From contig QMVZ01000002.1 of NCBI GenBank assembly GCA_003661365.1, positions 1-36,060 of the forward strand: a stretch of 36,060 nucleotides of DNA, read 5' to 3'. Position 1 is the stretch's first letter; the number at the start of each line of letters is the position of its first letter. The position numbers were made by a program, and so were the translations under genes. This DNA is from Thermoproteota archaeon (GTDB lineage Archaea; Korarchaeota; Korarchaeia; Korarchaeales; Korarchaeaceae). Below, in pieces: positions 633 through 34,851 of this stretch. The notes under the pieces were generated by a model. The model was not told where the DNA came from, ran no database searches, and saw nothing but the letters and a program-made list of their open reading frames with translations.

Positions 633-2519
633 GTGAACCTAATGACTAGAGAATTCACTATAGTCTTTCAGCCATACGGGAGAAGGGTATCTGCTAGCAA
701 AGATACCAATTTACTGGAAGCAGCTAGATCGGCGGGAATAACTCTTAGAAGTGTATGTGGTGGCAAAGGTGGTTGTGGAAAGTGCAAGATTATTGTGCAG
801 AAAGGTAGTGTTCAATTTAATTACGATCCAAAGGAGAAATTACTGACTGATGAAGAGCTAAAGGAAGGATATGTCCTAGCCTGCTTGACATTTCCGATGT
901 CAGATTGCGAGGTCTTTATTCCTCCAGAAACAAGGCTAGAGGGTCAAAAAATTCAGATGGAAGCAAAAGTCCCGAAAGTCATTCCAGAACCAGCCGTCAA
1001 AAAGGTCTTTGTGAAACCAACTCAACTAGCGGACAAAGCCGGGAATCAGCTAGAGAAATTATTGTATTTCGTAGGGGTTGAAAGCTTTCCTGAACATGTG
1101 CAAGAGAAGCTTAAGGCTATGCCCGAATGTTGCCCAGAAGGAGCTACGCTAATTATTAGAAGATATGGAGGTGAGGTAGAGGTACTAGGATTAGAGGAGG
1201 GCAATACAACAAATAGACTCTTTGGACTCGCTGTTGATATAGGAACTACGAAGATAGTCGCTTACCTAGTTGACCTCACTACCGGGGAGATCCTTGGATA
1301 TGAATCAGGCTATAATAAGCAGCTGATGTATGGTGAAGACGTTGTATCAAGAATAGGATACACTATGGAGAAGGAAGAGGGCACTAAAAAGATTCAGAAA
1401 GCAGCTGTTGATACGATAAATGAGCTCATCTCTAAATTAACTTCGAAATATCAAGTTAGAAAAGAGGAGATAGTCGATGTCTGTGTCGCAGGAAATACTG
1501 TCATGACATACCTTTTCGCAGGGAAAGATGCATCTCCTCTCTTAGATCCAGGAGCTAAGGTACCAGGACATCCTTTGTTTCTGGAAGCTAAGGACGTTGA
1601 ACTTGAAGTTCATGAAGCTGCAAGGGTGTACTGTCTTCCTTGTGTGAGCAGATTCTTTGGAGGAGATGCTATAGGAGATATCCTTGCGTCTGGAATGCAC
1701 AAATCTCCTAAGATTTCATTACTTGTAGATATCGGTACAAATGTAGAAGCTGTTCTAGGCTGCGAATCATGGTTCGTCACCACTACCGCTGCTGCAGGCC
1801 CTGCCTTTGAGGGTTGGGGGATTAGGTTTGGAACAAGAGCAATCGAAGGGGCAATAGACCACGTTAAAATAGATCCTGTAACGCTGAAAGCTGAATACCG
1901 TGTAATAGGAAATGTAAAGCCCAAAGGCATATGTGGCTCTGGATTAATTGATTTACTCTCTGAGATGTTCCGTAATGGAATAGTTGACAGTCTTGGGAAG
2001 ATAAATACTGAGCTAAAAACGCCATATATAAGGCAAGGAATTGATGGCTACGAATATGTAGTTGTTCCAGCCGAAAAGACAGCAATAGGCAAGGACATTG
2101 TGATTACTGAGAAGGACATAGCAAATTTAATCGACTCCAAGGCAGCAGCGTGTTCTGCCATCGGAGTCTTATTAAAGAAGATGAGATTGAGCGTTTATGA
2201 CATAGAGCAAGTGTTTATCTGTGGAGCTTTTGGAAACTATCTGGACCTAAATAGCGCAATTGCCATAGGGTTAATACCAGAGCTCCCTAATGCTAGGATA
2301 ACTTATTTAGGAAACGGATCAGTAGCTGGGGCTTATCTTACCCTTGTTTCGGTGAAATACAGGTATGAGGCAGAGGAAATAGCTAGGCTTACAACGTACT
2401 TCGATCTTCTTAAAGACCCAGACTTCATGGACGAGTATACTGCTGCCTACTTTCTTCCCGGGAAAAAAGATTTGTTCCCAACATGGTGGGAAGCCAGCAG
2501 AAAAATTAAGAGAAGTTAA
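633..2519 (+). CDS. N-terminal 2Fe-2S ferredoxin plus ASKHA-fold ATPase (RACo/RamA-like, DUF4445), reductive activator of corrinoid protein; likely start ATG 642
   Basis: CGGKGGCGKC...C plant-type ferredoxin motif; ASKHA motifs LAVDIGTTKIVAYLVDL, LLVDIGTNVEAVLG and ICGAFGNYLDLNSAIAIGLIP; adjacent to cdhE. Confidence 0.88.
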   Translation: MNLMTREFTIVFQPYGRRVSASKDTNLLEAARSAGITLRSVCGGKGGCGKCKIIVQKGSVQFNYDPKEKLLTDEELKEGYVLACLTFPMSDCEVFIPPETRLEGQKIQMEAKVPKVIPEPAVKKVFVKPTQLADKAGNQLEKLLYFVGVESFPEHVQEKLKAMPECCPEGATLIIRRYGGEVEVLGLEEGNTTNRLFGLAVDIGTTKIVAYLVDLTTGEILGYESGYNKQLMYGEDVVSRIGYTMEKEEGTKKIQKAAVDTINELISKLTSKYQVRKEEIVDVCVAGNTVMTYLFAGKDASPLLDPGAKVPGHPLFLEAKDVELEVHEAARVYCLPCVSRFFGGDAIGDILASGMHKSPKISLLVDIGTNVEAVLGCESWFVTTTAAAGPAFEGWGIRFGTRAIEGAIDHVKIDPVTLKAEYRVIGNVKPKGICGSGLIDLLSEMFRNGIVDSLGKINTELKTPYIRQGIDGYEYVVVPAEKTAIGKDIVITEKDIANLIDSKAAACSAIGVLLKKMRLSVYDIEQVFICGAFGNYLDLNSAIAIGLIPELPNARITYLGNGSVAGAYLTLVSVKYRYEAEEIARLTTYFDLLKDPDFMDEYTAAYFLPGKKDLFPTWWEASRKIKRS

Positions 2520-2631
2520 TTTACAATGCCAAAATGGGACTACGACCATTTAGTAGAGTTTATAGCTCTCTTCAAGAACCAAAGTAGTGGATGATATTAA
2601 AACATCTCAAGAGAAATCTAGGGGCATTGAA

Positions 2632-3402
2632 ATGAGCTTGGTTATTTCTATTTCAGGCAAGGGAGGAACGGGTAAGACTACTTTGGCAGGCTTGCTACTT
2701 AGAACTTTGTTAGACAATGGGAAAAATGACTCCATTCTTATGGTGGACGCAGATCCAGCCTCAAACCTGCAAGAGGTCTTAGGAGTTGAAGTTGATAAAA
2801 ACGTTGGAGTCGTGGCAGATGAACTCAAAAAAAAGATAGAAAAAGGAGAACTTCCGCTGGGAGTCTCTAAGGCGGACCTATTGGAGGCATGGGTTTATGA
2901 AACCCTTGTAGAGCTTCCAGATTTTGACCTCTTAGTTATGGGCAGGAGCGAGGGGGAGGGGTGTTATTGCTACGTGAACAGCGTTCTCACAAGGATACTT
3001 GATGCCATCACGAAGAATTATGACATAACCATAATGGATATGGAAGCTGGACTTGAGCACCTAAGCAGGAGAACTGACCGAGATGTGGACATAATGTTGA
3101 TTGTTACAGATCCCTCATCGATGGGCTTTAAAACAGCAGAAAGAATAAAGGAACTTGCTCATGAGGTTCACATAAATGTAGGAAAGATATATCTTGTGGG
3201 AAATAGATTTCCAGAAGAACTTATTGGCTTGCTTGAAGAGAAAGCTAAGAATATGGGTGTGGAATTCGCTGGATCCATTCCTTCCGATCCAAATGTCACT
3301 AGGTTCAACATAGAAGGCAGGTCTCTCCTTGAGCTCCCAAGCGATTCACCAGCCCTGAAGGCAGCTGAAAAAATCGCTAAGAGGATAGGCTTGTTGAATT
3401 AA
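2632..3402 (+). CDS. cooC: CooC-like CO dehydrogenase maturation ATPase (MinD/ParA family); ORF track start 2587, likely start 2632
   Basis: Deviant Walker A SGKGGTGKTTLAG at the N-terminus, VDADPASNLQEVLG, GEGCYCYVNSVLTRILD, DMEAGLEHLSRRT; all typical of CooC/AcsF. Confidence 0.88.
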   Translation: MSLVISISGKGGTGKTTLAGLLLRTLLDNGKNDSILMVDADPASNLQEVLGVEVDKNVGVVADELKKKIEKGELPLGVSKADLLEAWVYETLVELPDFDLLVMGRSEGEGCYCYVNSVLTRILDAITKNYDITIMDMEAGLEHLSRRTDRDVDIMLIVTDPSSMGFKTAERIKELAHEVHINVGKIYLVGNRFPEELIGLLEEKAKNMGVEFAGSIPSDPNVTRFNIEGRSLLELPSDSPALKAAEKIAKRIGLLN

Positions 3403-23442: not shown

Positions 23443-23475
23443 AAAAACCTCTTTTTCGTGAGAAAAGAGGTTTTT
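23443..23475 (-). terminator. Hairpin terminator candidate between methyltransferase 3' end and acyl-CoA dehydrogenase 5' end
   Basis: Perfect 13-bp inverted repeat AAAAACCTCTTTT-(7 nt)-AAAAGAGGTTTTT with flanking T run. Confidence 0.7.
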
Positions 23476-30464: not shown

Positions 30465-31589
30465 ATGTTACTTTTGGTTTCTTTGATGCCGGAAAAGTGG
30501 AGGTTGTTGGATCTAGGAGCTTTGAACGGATACGCCATCCAATCAGTATATGAATCAGTGGCTAAATCCGTAGGGGAGGGAAAATCACCTAATACGCTCA
30601 TTCTCTGTTATCCTTCAGATCCTTACGTATGTATAGGCGTCCATCAGATCGTTTTCAAAGAGGTAGACGTGGAATATTGCACAACTCATGGAATACCAAT
30701 AGTAAGGAGAAGGCAGGGAGGGGGAGCAGTCTATCTAGACGATGGCCAACAGTTCTATCATCTAATCATGAAAAGCAAAGGAATGATGGATGTAGAAGGA
30801 TTCTACAGGAAATACCTCCAGCCTACCGTTTATGTATATAGGAGATACGGGCTTAACGCCGAATACAGACCCATAAATGACGTGGTGGTAAACGGTAAAA
30901 AGGCATCAGGAAATGCTGCAGAAACTATTGGCGGGGCGGACATATTAATTGGGAACGTTATAATGGACATAGATCCAAGGAAGCTAGTTAGCGTACTCAG
31001 AGTTCCGGATGAGAAGTTCAGAGACAAGTTAGCATCCTCTATGGAGCTGTGGCTTACTTCATTGAAAAAAGAACTTGGGTACGTACCTCCTAGAGAGGAA
31101 GTTAAGGAATACCTCATAGAAGGTTATGAGAAGACCCTAAAGATAGAATTAGAGCCTGGAAGTCTTACTGAAGATGAAAAGGAGGAATGGGCAAAGCTGA
31201 TTGAGGAATTCAGATCTGATAGATGGACGTATAAGAAGGAGTTCGAACATGAAAGGCTTTTAGAAATCATAACCGGAAAGTGCACTAAGGTTTCTGAGGA
31301 TGTGCAGGTTTGCGAAGCAACTTACAAGGCAGAAAAACTCCTTAGGATCATAATAGAGGTTTCGAAGGGCAAAATAACTGATGTGGTTATCTCTGGAGAC
31401 TTCTTCATGGAACCTTACACTGCATTGAGGCTTCTAGAGGAAGAGCTCGTCGGAGCTAAACTCGAAAGAGATGAGCTCTCAAAAAAGGTAAAATCCTTCT
31501 TCGAGAAGGCTGGAGTAAGGTTGGTGGGAGCTAAACCAGAGGACTTGGTTGAAGCACTAATGAAAGCTAGCGAGAGACCTCACCTATAA
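30465..31589 (+). CDS. Lipoate-protein ligase A family with C-terminal accessory domain (LplA-LplB-like fusion); possible start at ATG 30487
   Basis: RRRQGGGAVYLDDGQQFYHLI, NDVVVNGKKASGNAAE, IGNVIMDID; C-terminal FEHERLLEIITGKCTKV...LLRIIIEVSKGKITDVVISGDFF. Confidence 0.85.
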   Translation: MLLLVSLMPEKWRLLDLGALNGYAIQSVYESVAKSVGEGKSPNTLILCYPSDPYVCIGVHQIVFKEVDVEYCTTHGIPIVRRRQGGGAVYLDDGQQFYHLIMKSKGMMDVEGFYRKYLQPTVYVYRRYGLNAEYRPINDVVVNGKKASGNAAETIGGADILIGNVIMDIDPRKLVSVLRVPDEKFRDKLASSMELWLTSLKKELGYVPPREEVKEYLIEGYEKTLKIELEPGSLTEDEKEEWAKLIEEFRSDRWTYKKEFEHERLLEIITGKCTKVSEDVQVCEATYKAEKLLRIIIEVSKGKITDVVISGDFFMEPYTALRLLEEELVGAKLERDELSKKVKSFFEKAGVRLVGAKPEDLVEALMKASERPHL

Positions 31590-31924
31590 GATCCGTGCTT
31601 AGATCTGTTGTATGTTGATAGAAATGCTGCAGCAAATCTGTTAGCGTGTTTTTCGGTTCCTCTGTGCTTACCAAGCATGATCCTGATGTGATGGTAAAAC
31701 TCATGTAAAATTATGTAGGGGTTGGTGTAGAAATCCCCGTCAGCCAGATAGATAGTCTTATCTTTAGCTGAGTATACAGCAAGTGCCTTAGAGTGACCTT
31801 TGACGTGCTTTACCTTTATCTTTGGTTTGTCCACTTCAAATTCAGTTGCGAGCGTGCTCAGGGCTTTTTCTGTCTTTCCTTCTAAAATCAGCCTTACGAT
31901 CTCAGCCCTGAACTTTTCGTCCAT
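31580..31924 (-). CDS. Minimal zincin-like protein (ImmA/IrrE M78- or SprT-like, 114 aa)
   Basis: IILHEFYHHIRIMLGKHRGTEKHANRFAAAFLSTY: HExxH plus downstream E..ANRFA reminiscent of M78; convergent 10-nt overlap with ligase gene. Confidence 0.7.
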   Translation of the reverse strand: MDEKFRAEIVRLILEGKTEKALSTLATEFEVDKPKIKVKHVKGHSKALAVYSAKDKTIYLADGDFYTNPYIILHEFYHHIRIMLGKHRGTEKHANRFAAAFLSTYNRSKHGSYR

Positions 31925-32055
31925 TTTGAATTCTCCAGCCGATTTATTGAACCCCTTCAGCTCAATTCATATAATAAAAATACCTTGGAGTGAAAGATTT
32001 GAGCTTCTATCATATATTGAATTGCCTTTCATAGTTTGAGCTGTTCAAAGTACCT

Positions 32056-32615
32056 TTAATCGTTAGTTTTAGGTAGAAATATCTTGTTAATGAATCTGAT
32101 AAGTTCGGGCCCAACAATTGAAAAAAGAGCGGCGTTAGAAAGTTCATGAACTAAGGCAAAGGGAATTCCAGCTAGAAGAGCTATTGTTAGGGGGATCTTA
32201 AACGTCAGCGCAAAGACAGCGTTGGTGAGGAAATCATAAGTGAGGGTGCAGAGCAAACCTAGCAGGGCTAACTCAGCTCTACCTGCTTGGGAGGATTTTC
32301 TCCTTAAAATCCCCCCAAGATCCCATAAATTGTTTCGGCTAATGCGGTTGCTATCAAGATCGTGGGAACCCAGCCATAAGGGTTGAGAAAACCATATACA
32401 ATCCAGCTGAGAGCGCCAACTATTGCACCGTCCAATGGTCCAGCTATGAGACCAGCAACAAAGACCAGCAAGTCCATGAATTTGACATTTGGTATCCAAA
32501 CAAGAGCATAATTAGACGAAACGGAGAGTGCCACTAGGATAGCGATCAATGACACCCTTATAGAAGGGGTTAGGGTTTTGGAAGCGGACTTTGTGAAGTA
32601 TCCTCGTAGTACCAA
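32056..32615 (-). CDS. ECF-type transporter substrate-binding (S) component-like membrane protein, split into two frames at a G6 run (programmed frameshift, pseudogene or sequence error)
   Basis: ORF 32304..32615 ends ...AETIYGILGGF*; the other frame continues LGGILRRKSSQAGRAELALLGLLCTLTYDFLTNAVFALTFKIPLTIALLAGIPFALVHELSNAALFSIV. One extra G joins them. Confidence 0.7.
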
Positions 32616-33028
32616 AGCAATACCTCCTTATCGCTTACTACGTACTTATCTGCAGCTACTGGCCCCTCTTGCCAACCACCCCAGTCAGTCCATATCCACC
32701 ACATCCAGTAGAAGGGATGCTCGTTCTTCACCCCATTTATTGATTCCACAAGAACTCCCATCCCAGGATATGCGGTGTAGTTAACATCTGCTACGAGCGC
32801 AGTTACATCAAATAAGGTTGAGCCTGCTGGAACTTGTGTCCCATTGTACCATTTTATGGTACCGTTCCAGAACTTTATTCCCAAGTTTACTTCGATTTTC
32901 TCTTTGGATAGTGCTTTTTTAACCTCTTTTAATTGATAAAAGGAATATACTGCTAACATACTTGAAGAAATAGCCCATATTACCAACAAAATGCTAAGCA
33001 GAGATATCCTGTTTATTGGATGGATCAT
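32570..33028 (-). CDS. DUF4430-domain protein with N-terminal membrane anchor/signal
   Basis: ISLLSILLVIWAISSSMLAVYSF anchor; GSTLFDVTALVADVNYTAYPGMGVLVESINGVKNEHPFYWMWWIWTDWGGWQEGPVAADKYVVSDKEVLLWYYED. Confidence 0.8.
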   Translation of the reverse strand: MIHPINRISLLSILLVIWAISSSMLAVYSFYQLKEVKKALSKEKIEVNLGIKFWNGTIKWYNGTQVPAGSTLFDVTALVADVNYTAYPGMGVLVESINGVKNEHPFYWMWWIWTDWGGWQEGPVAADKYVVSDKEVLLWYYEDTSQSPLPKP

Positions 33029-33037
33029 CCATCCAAT
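33015..33037. promoter_or_regulatory. 23-nt perfect palindrome ATTGGATGGAT-C-ATCCATCCAAT, putative operator
   Basis: 11-bp perfect arms; spans the DUF4430 start codon and abuts TATA-like CTTTAAAG (33041-33048) serving the divergent DUF4443 gene. Confidence 0.75.
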
Positions 33038-33077
33038 ATGCTTTAAAGTTTTCCTCGATCACAAAGACTTGTAGAGA

Positions 33078-33725
33078 ATGGAAGAATTTTCTAAAGTACT
33101 CAAACAACTCAATGATTTTCTAGATTCTATCAAACCCGGGGTAGGTCCTTCTCCCAAGTTTACAGCATCTCACGCCATCATGTGTCTGTACATAATAGCA
33201 GAGAAACAACCTATTGGAAGAAAGAAACTATCAGCAGAACTTGGGATTGGTGAAGGAAGCGCGAGAAGCTTGTTAGCTCGGCTAAAACGTCTAGGATTAT
33301 TGGATATCTCCAAAAAAGGTCTTATGCTCAATAAACAGGGAGAAGAATTCCTCAAGAGGCTCAGCCTTTTGATAAGTCCTCCGAAACGCGTTTCAGCTGA
33401 AAAAATAGCCATTAGCCGAATATCGACAGCCATCTTAGTTCGAGGTGTTGCTGAGAAAGTAGGCAATGGTATGAGAGTTAGAGATGCGGCAGTAAGTCAG
33501 GGAGCATCTGGTGCAACCACCCTAATCTTCATGGGAGGAAAGCTTCAGATACCTGGTGTGAGTCAAGACGCCGAGACCGACTTTCCAGAGGAAGTTGGAA
33601 GCCTAGTTGAAGAACTCAAGCCTAGAGAGGGCGATGCCATCATACTAGGAACCGCAGAGAGGTGGAGAGACGCTGAGCTTGGAGCTATAGCCGGCGCTCT
33701 CTCCTTGCTAGGAGTTGGCTGGTAG
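33078..33725 (+). CDS. DUF4443-family protein with N-terminal winged HTH
   Basis: GRKKLSAELGIGEGSARSLLARLKRLGLLDISKKGLMLNKQGEEFL wHTH; C-terminal DAIILGTAERWRDAELGAIAGALSLLG. Confidence 0.78.
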   Translation: MEEFSKVLKQLNDFLDSIKPGVGPSPKFTASHAIMCLYIIAEKQPIGRKKLSAELGIGEGSARSLLARLKRLGLLDISKKGLMLNKQGEEFLKRLSLLISPPKRVSAEKIAISRISTAILVRGVAEKVGNGMRVRDAAVSQGASGATTLIFMGGKLQIPGVSQDAETDFPEEVGSLVEELKPREGDAIILGTAERWRDAELGAIAGALSLLGVGW

Positions 33726-34851
33726 GCGAGAGGATGACCTCTTGAAGAAGTGGTTTGAAGAGCTTGTAATAAACCCAAATCCTGTTATCAGTTCCCTCTG
33801 TTACTCGATTTTAAGGATAGAGCCTTACTCTACCTGCCCTCATGCCTGTACATACTGCTTTAGGAGGTGGGCAGCTGAGACTAGGAAGAACTTGATCAAT
33901 ACCGGGCAGATCAAGGCTTTTCGTAGAATAGCTGACTTCATAGCAGCTAGAGGGATTAAGACAATACCTTTTAGGATCTCAACGCTGTGCGATCCCTTTT
34001 CTGAACCAGAGAGGCGTTTTAAAATGACCCTTAAGCTTCTTAGAGTTGCAAGGAACAAGAGAATCCGCATAATCCTGTCAACGAAGTCAAACTTGGTAGT
34101 AGAAGATCCTTGGATATATGAGATAGAGCAGCTCTCCCAAATGGGCCTGGTAGCAGTACAATTTACCTTGATAACTCTTGAGGAATCTCTTTCCAAAAAA
34201 TTGGAGCCAATGGCACCTTTACCCTCAGAGAGGTTAGATGCTATGGAAAGACTTCACAAAAAAGGAGTTCCCATAATTTTGAGGCTTCAACCCATAATAC
34301 CTGGCTTGAACGATTCTTCAAATTCATTACTAGAGGTTATTATGGAAGCAAAGGCCTCTGGAGCTGAAAGAGTCATAATTGAGTGTCTAAGAGTCAAAAT
34401 AGGTGATTCTTTCTCCAGAGAAATAGGGTTAGATGAAAACTGCTTGGTTCCCTATTACGGATCCAAGCACTTGTTAGGCGTTGATTTCCCACATATGAAA
34501 AGGATATCAGAATCAGTTCGTACTATAGTTGATGCCTGCGGAATGTCATTTTCCGGATATAAGGAAACTCTATTTCCCCTTTACACGGCTGAGAACTGCT
34601 GCGGAATTGATCTACTAAAGAACGCTTGTATTAGAATAACTCTTAGAGAGATCTTCGGGAAGGCAAAGGGAATAGAAGATTTAGAGGGCCTGCTGGCTGA
34701 GCTAAGTAGAGATGAGAGGTTCATCGAATCCCATCTGGATGATTTGCCTAGGCCGATAGCCAGAAAGATAAGAGCTCATCAGAAGGTTCTGAAAAGGACT
34801 ATTGGCTCAGAAACAACGCGAAGTCATTTCTTTCCAATATTACAAAGTTAA
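33715..34851 (+). CDS. Radical SAM protein, SPL-like (TTG start overlapping upstream gene by 11 nt)
   Basis: YSTCPHACTYCFRRWA (CxxxCxxC); RISTLCDPFSEPERRFKMTLKLLRVARNKRIRIILSTKS; C-terminal Cys cluster NCCGIDLLKNACI. Confidence 0.87.
   Translation: MAGRREDDLLKKWFEELVINPNPVISSLCYSILRIEPYSTCPHACTYCFRRWAAETRKNLINTGQIKAFRRIADFIAARGIKTIPFRISTLCDPFSEPERRFKMTLKLLRVARNKRIRIILSTKSNLVVEDPWIYEIEQLSQMGLVAVQFTLITLEESLSKKLEPMAPLPSERLDAMERLHKKGVPIILRLQPIIPGLNDSSNSLLEVIMEAKASGAERVIIECLRVKIGDSFSREIGLDENCLVPYYGSKHLLGVDFPHMKRISESVRTIVDACGMSFSGYKETLFPLYTAENCCGIDLLKNACIRITLREIFGKAKGIEDLEGLLAELSRDERFIESHLDDLPRPIARKIRAHQKVLKRTIGSETTRSHFFPILQS

Follow-up and report, generated by a model that had tools for sequence, protein, structure and literature searches.

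Many archaea depend on vitamin B12, and bacteria sense this cofactor mostly by means of riboswitches, which to our knowledge archaea seem to lack. In bacterial cobalamin riboswitch regulons, B12-independent enzymes come under B12 control where a B12-dependent isozyme co-occurs. A signal of a hypothetical B12 regulator, the CBL-box, is said to have been found in some archaea by Rodionov et al. in 2003 (J Biol Chem), reportedly in a small set of archaea and with the regulator left unidentified. The site described here is probably the same or an overlapping signal; in the literature searched, no mention of either DUF4443 or the CBL-box was found, and nothing useful on CblR. The site is a palindrome in the 36,060-nucleotide stretch of DNA analysed here (the window), and comparative sequence analysis makes it quite likely that this palindrome serves as the operator for a cobalamin regulon of archaea, with DUF4443 as the most likely regulator and repression responding to corrinoids. 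Like the bacterial riboswitch regulons, the proposed regulon comprises B12 uptake and synthesis genes and includes B12-independent ribonucleotide reductase only together with the B12-dependent enzyme. Unlike those regulons, in which the sensor is an mRNA aptamer, it would employ a DNA operator and a candidate protein repressor, and an Rfam scan of positions 31500-34000 gave no match, and thus no leader aptamer for cobalamin. The protein PH0730 from Pyrococcus horikoshii (PDB 2P8T) belongs to the same family as DUF4443 (E=6.8e-14; TM 0.70/0.80) and was deposited as a hypothetical protein without an assigned function, ligand or operator. The candidate regulator, the division of the site into two boxes and the related single box, the placement next to the TATA box, the spread across archaeal phyla, and the archaeal NrdJ/NrdD test appear to be new.

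The initial annotation had reported a 23-nt perfect palindrome with 11-bp arms, an adjacent self-complementary TATA-like element, and a setting between a plus-strand DUF4443 gene and minus-strand DUF4430 and ECF genes, all of which are recovered here, the genes by profile search (Table 1). The inner 23 nt, ATTGGATGGATCATCCATCCAAT or ATTGGATGGAT-C-ATCCATCCAAT, occupy 33015-33037, and the symmetry continues for one further base on each side, while the TATA-like box probably serves both divergent promoters in the window. The accompanying chance estimate of less than 0.01 was somewhat optimistic for a site that is nevertheless real: when the window is shuffled with its dinucleotides preserved, palindromes whose arms reach 11 bp or more and whose spacer is 0-1 turn up 0.05 times per shuffle, a figure that rises to 0.25 if spacers of 0-12 are admitted. 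In the window alone the palindrome is only moderately surprising, and it is conservation elsewhere that decides.

Table 1. Features of the DUF4430/DUF4443 locus in window coordinates.
Feature	Position	Strand	Basis
Perfect palindrome TATTGGATGGAT-C-ATCCATCCAATA	33014..33038	.	12-bp arms, 1-nt centre; palindrome scan
19-bp operator core TGGATGGATNATCCATCCA	33017..33035	.	Conserved with 0-1 mismatch in 16 family genomes; 107 exact stretches
First GGAT-N5-ATCC box, proposed site of one dimer	33018..33030	.	Inferred from overlap with the single box TTGGAT-N5-ATCCAA
Second, overlapping GGAT-N5-ATCC box, 4 bp offset	33022..33034	.	As for the first box
Self-complementary TATA-like box CTTTAAAG	33041..33048	.	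Putative promoter element; A/T peaks of related sites
DUF4443 winged-HTH protein, candidate cobalamin-responsive repressor	33078..33725	+	PF14544 E=8.9e-25; PH0730-like_N, CggR_N
DUF4430 membrane-anchored protein	32570..33028	-	PF14478; commonest family beside the site in other genomes
ECF transporter S-component, frameshifted near 32310	32056..32615	-	PF12822 (first half); tblastn

The DUF4430 protein is probably the corrinoid-binding partner of the transporter. Intact relatives of the ECF S-component align to the window's gene by tblastn in two frames and across both halves, and the frame break adjoins a run of six G; the split may be an assembly error or a real mutation. The window's genome has one operator site only, and NrdJ was not detected in it. 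Elsewhere in the window, a gene for a RACo-type reductive activator of corrinoid proteins (633-2516, plus strand) is adjacent to one for a CooC/ParA-like ATPase (2587-3399, plus strand), a pairing from which the host organism can be predicted to use, probably, corrinoid-dependent methyl transfer. A second perfect inverted repeat, at 23443-23475 (AAAAACCTCTTTT / AAAAGAGGTTTTT, 13-bp arms, 7-base loop), lies between two minus-strand genes and resembles a transcription terminator.

Conservation upstream of DUF4443 and DUF4430 in relatives had been named in the initial annotation as a test of the operator, and it is found. Within the 24 sampled genomes of the window's family, in which DUF4443 and DUF4430 are usually divergent neighbours, 16 have TGGATGGATNATCCATCCA between the two genes, differing at one position at most, and the intergenic region of G008 holds a form with three mismatches. 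The two genes were not seen side by side in G001 or G017; there is no site at the DUF4443 gene of G001, and the DUF4430 promoter of G017 carries the variant box AGGTTGGATTATTTATCCAACCT. Two- and three-mismatch matches within genes of the family (e.g. G016, G013, G015, and G000:C1:19830) were judged to be chance. A scan of 84,980 species genomes (257 Gb) returned 107 stretches with the exact core, against about 4 expected in random sequence (3.7; 257e9/4^18). Eighty of these stretches were loaded, and 68 are archaeal as judged by title or context, from Bathyarchaeia, Nitrososphaeria and Aigarchaeota relatives, Methanomethylicia, Methanomassiliicoccales, Korarchaeia, and others; the remaining 12 are bacterial; most of these fall inside genes or lack a B12 context, and they were discounted as chance matches. 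With up to one mismatch, the core is present in 73/349 genomes in the phylum of G031 compared with 1/349 for the reversed control, and in 21/29 genomes of the window's phylum compared with 0 for that control. The initial annotation had proposed the operator of a dedicated local regulator; the operator function is well supported by this comparison, and the regulon reaches into other archaeal phyla, a point that the annotation had missed. A short-peptide-pattern search of genome contigs with the window's DUF4443 found nothing, because the protein is too diverged.

The genes at these sites centre on cobalamin. After removal of duplicates, 155 distinct archaeal sites with 0-1 mismatch were collected, and 131 of them adjoin a B12-class gene within the first two positions on either side, DUF4443 itself being counted. 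The largest groups of neighbours are DUF4430, ECF-S, a BtuF-like binding protein with BtuC and an ABC ATPase, DUF4443, and NrdD. Library searches with representatives confirmed Peripla_BP_2, FecCD (best NCBIfam match BtuC), CbiQ and NRDD, further CobD, MtaB, McrB, CobN, cobaltochelatase, CobB and CobT, and also RACo, a B12-binding corrinoid protein and MtmB. In genomes of the window's family, further copies of the site accompany the anaerobic ribonucleotide reductase genes NrdD-NrdG, genes for corrinoid methyltransferase and RACo, and a gene whose membrane-protein product may be an S-component. The role of uptake-gene regulator proposed earlier is supported in that uptake genes are among the targets, but it overlooked a cobalamin-centred regulon that also holds synthesis and isozyme genes. 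A PP-loop protein resembling DUF71 on sequence (cluster 38) adjoins some sites, and the DUF71 family has been linked to B12 salvage (PMC3541065).

Several individual neighbourhoods may be recorded here. In Methanomassiliicoccales (L114, L124, L147) an exact 19-bp site lies ∼115 bases upstream of mcrB, a placement that suggests possible B12 control of methyl-coenzyme M reductase. At operator copies in L128, L171, and L254, DUF4430-type proteins are fused to PKD repeats or encoded beside prenyltransferase-like toroid proteins, an arrangement reminiscent of transcobalamin architecture. Three relatives of Nitrososphaeria (L113, L117, L152) encode a membrane protein of ∼243 residues, possibly an unrecognised S-component, whose gene diverges from an ABC ATPase and CbiQ-type gene across a common operator.

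The pattern of ribonucleotide reductases in the window's family bears directly on the nature of the regulon. A perfect site lies at NrdD in all six family genomes that have the B12-dependent NrdJ and an assessable NrdD (G003, G007, G008, G010, G011, G021), and no NrdD site was found in the three that have NrdD but in which NrdJ was undetected (G000, G001, G005); the latter genomes are 71-87% complete, hence the absence of NrdJ from them is not certain. The association has a Fisher P=0.012, a value that overstates the evidence since the nine genomes are related. As far as so small a sample goes, the B12-independent isozyme appears to be placed under the site only where the B12-dependent one is present.

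For 114 target genes aligned in a common orientation, the A+T content peaks immediately ahead of the palindrome, at 0.72-0.85 over 15 bases, and elsewhere stays near background, a compositional signal indicating that a TATA box abuts the site at target genes. The distance from TATA box to transcription start in archaea is usually ∼25 bp, and transcription would therefore start near the downstream edge of the palindrome. A protein bound there would probably cover the core promoter, and the location of the site directly after the TATA box is probably that of a repressor site. For divergent DUF4443 genes the A/T peak falls at +25 to +34 relative to the site, which is therefore just upstream of the TATA/BRE region of these genes. 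Many called target genes begin at an ATG within the palindrome (MD[NY]PS...), and these calls are probably over-extended, because in 37/41 cases an alternative start is available no more than 14 codons away. The window's DUF4430 gene has no ATG other than the one inside the palindrome, so that the earlier description of a palindrome over the DUF4430 start codon holds for the sole in-frame ATG, whereas the promoter geometry puts the start of transcription at the far edge of the palindrome.

The core TGGATGGATNATCCATCCA contains the motif GGAT-N5-ATCC twice, at core positions 2-14 and 6-18. In the DtxR geometry two dimers bind on different faces of the operator, and by analogy the 19-bp core can be parsed into two dimer sites that overlap. 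The likeness to DtxR/IdeR metal repressors is confined to this division of a 19-bp palindrome into two overlapping boxes: the operator sequence differs, the Fe_dep_repress match of 18.2 bits is below its cut-off of 26, and no metal-binding domain was found in DUF4443. Single boxes of matching design occur in other lineages. Genomes without the 19-bp core, which are probably Nitrosopumilaceae, have DUF4443 promoters with boxes such as ATTGGATGGTTTATCCAAT and TTGGATGAATCATCCAA. When the single box TTGGAT-N5-ATCCAA was searched for in the same 349 genomes as the 19-bp core, 11 of the 47 listed sites with known DUF4443 coordinates lay within 3 kb of DUF4443 compared with 0.18 expected, several of them in near-identical relatives. 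Intergenic copies of the single box lie at BtuF, CobN, CobD, cobaltochelatase, and ECF-S genes, and intragenic copies look like chance. An intact GGAT-N5-ATCC box is retained in all 62 one-mismatch sites, which is true by construction and was not used as evidence.

DUF4443 is the only regulator whose gene recurs next to the site, divergently in the window's family and in the order ECF-DUF4430-DUF4443 in Bathyarchaeia relatives; beyond the window's family the majority of sites have no adjoining DUF4443 gene. It was found in 44/50 site-bearing archaeal genomes and, in one phylum, in 69/73 site-bearing genomes compared with 207/276 others (Fisher P=6e-5, uncorrected for kinship and therefore overstating the evidence from related genomes); some of the 4/73 site-bearing genomes without a DUF4443 match are incomplete. 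This co-occurrence is genuine, yet by itself it carries little weight given how widespread DUF4443 is, and the presence of DUF4443 without the 19-bp site in those 207 genomes implies that the family must also use other operators or roles. Together, linkage, co-occurrence, and the boxes at its own promoters support well the initial proposal of DUF4443 as the candidate uptake-gene regulator. The recognition helix GEG..RTL is near-invariant over 111 sequences and consequently fails to discriminate site-bearing from site-less genomes. The C-terminal domain scores 87 bits for PF14544 against a gathering cut-off of 27, and the N-terminus exceeds the cut-offs for the PH0730-like_N and CggR_N winged helix. 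An AlphaFold2 model (pLDDT 91.8) was compared by Foldseek with known structures: the HTH fits CggR on operator DNA (7OYK) with 0.9 Å over 66 residues and 38% identity, and the C-terminal half has a weak match, with TM below 0.4, to insert domains of aspartyl-tRNA synthetase. DUF4443 thus shares its N-terminal DNA-binding domain with the CggR/SorC repressors of Bacillus, but it differs from them in lacking the SorC sugar-phosphate effector domain (no Pfam match; only the HTH aligns) and in its operator. No known B12-binding motif was found in DUF4443. Multiple DUF4443 proteins (two or three) are encoded in the methanogen genomes G066, G074, G080, and G090, with one copy in an extended open frame of ∼330-360 residues.

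In the mechanism proposed here, in which we infer the corrinoid ligand from the content of the regulon, DUF4443 bound to a corrinoid would occupy the site when B12 is plentiful, with one dimer per GGAT-N5-ATCC box, and would block the core promoter from the TATA box to about the start of transcription. It would thereby shut off the genes for B12 uptake (DUF4430/ECF, BtuFCD) and for late steps of synthesis, together with B12-independent enzymes that can substitute, for instance the anaerobic ribonucleotide reductase; when B12 is scarce, DUF4443 would release them. The DUF4443 gene would also stand at an operator of its own. With less assurance, we lean towards the broader reading that DUF4443 is the archaeal B12 regulator, a widespread repressor whose C-terminal corrinoid sensor would be unlike the B12-binding fold or a riboswitch, and whose two-dimer operator would govern B12 supply and use across a large part of the Archaea.

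A functionless chance symmetry has a negligible probability. The 0.25 comparable palindromes expected in the window at any spacer of 0-12 might be adduced in its favour, but the footprint refutes it, since sequence, place, and gene class are conserved across archaeal phyla. An RNA hairpin acting in the 5' leader by translational control is very unlikely: the palindrome does overlap or just precede the called starts of many genes, yet the TATA box abuts it, which puts the greater part upstream of where transcription is expected to begin, its symmetric core is strictly conserved and not compensated, it serves divergent genes in both orientations, and Rfam gives no match at 31500-34000.

Two further alternatives, each improbable but deserving more weight than the hairpin, accept the operator and differ as to protein or signal. 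The B12-regulon operator might be bound by another protein, DUF4443 being a mere co-regulated neighbour; this would account for the many genomes that have DUF4443 without sites, for the sites not adjacent to it outside the window's family, and for another winged-HTH protein (cluster 72, in L186 and L443) beside sites at cobaltochelatase and CbiM-like genes. That protein is at few sites only, compared with the presence of DUF4443 in most site-bearing genomes, and boxes of matching design stand at DUF4443 promoters even in lineages with a different operator variant. Alternatively, the signal might be cobalt, another tetrapyrrole, or a methyl-transfer cue, as the CbiQ, CbiM-like, and cobaltochelatase genes among the targets and the McrB target in Methanomassiliicoccales would allow. 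Against this, the window's family has uptake genes and NrdD as its targets and shows the NrdJ/NrdD pattern, an organism that imports finished corrinoid would gain little from sensing cobalt, and the CobD, CobT, and CobB targets are corrinoid steps. Corrinoid-responsive repression by DUF4443 is thus the preferred reading.

Now that a candidate repressor is named, the structure of a relative is solved (2P8T), and both a short operator and a set of predicted targets are defined, archaeal B12 sensing becomes directly testable. If the reading is true, a function would be assigned to a DUF family that roughly four fifths of the genomes sampled in one large archaeal phylum encode (276/349), and the site would offer a means of locating B12 genes in archaea that have not been cultured. 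The different winged-HTH protein of the two Bathyarchaeia sequences L186 (2500-3315, plus strand) and L443, encoded beside operator copies at cobaltochelatase and CbiM-like genes, is possibly a second B12 or cobalt regulator.
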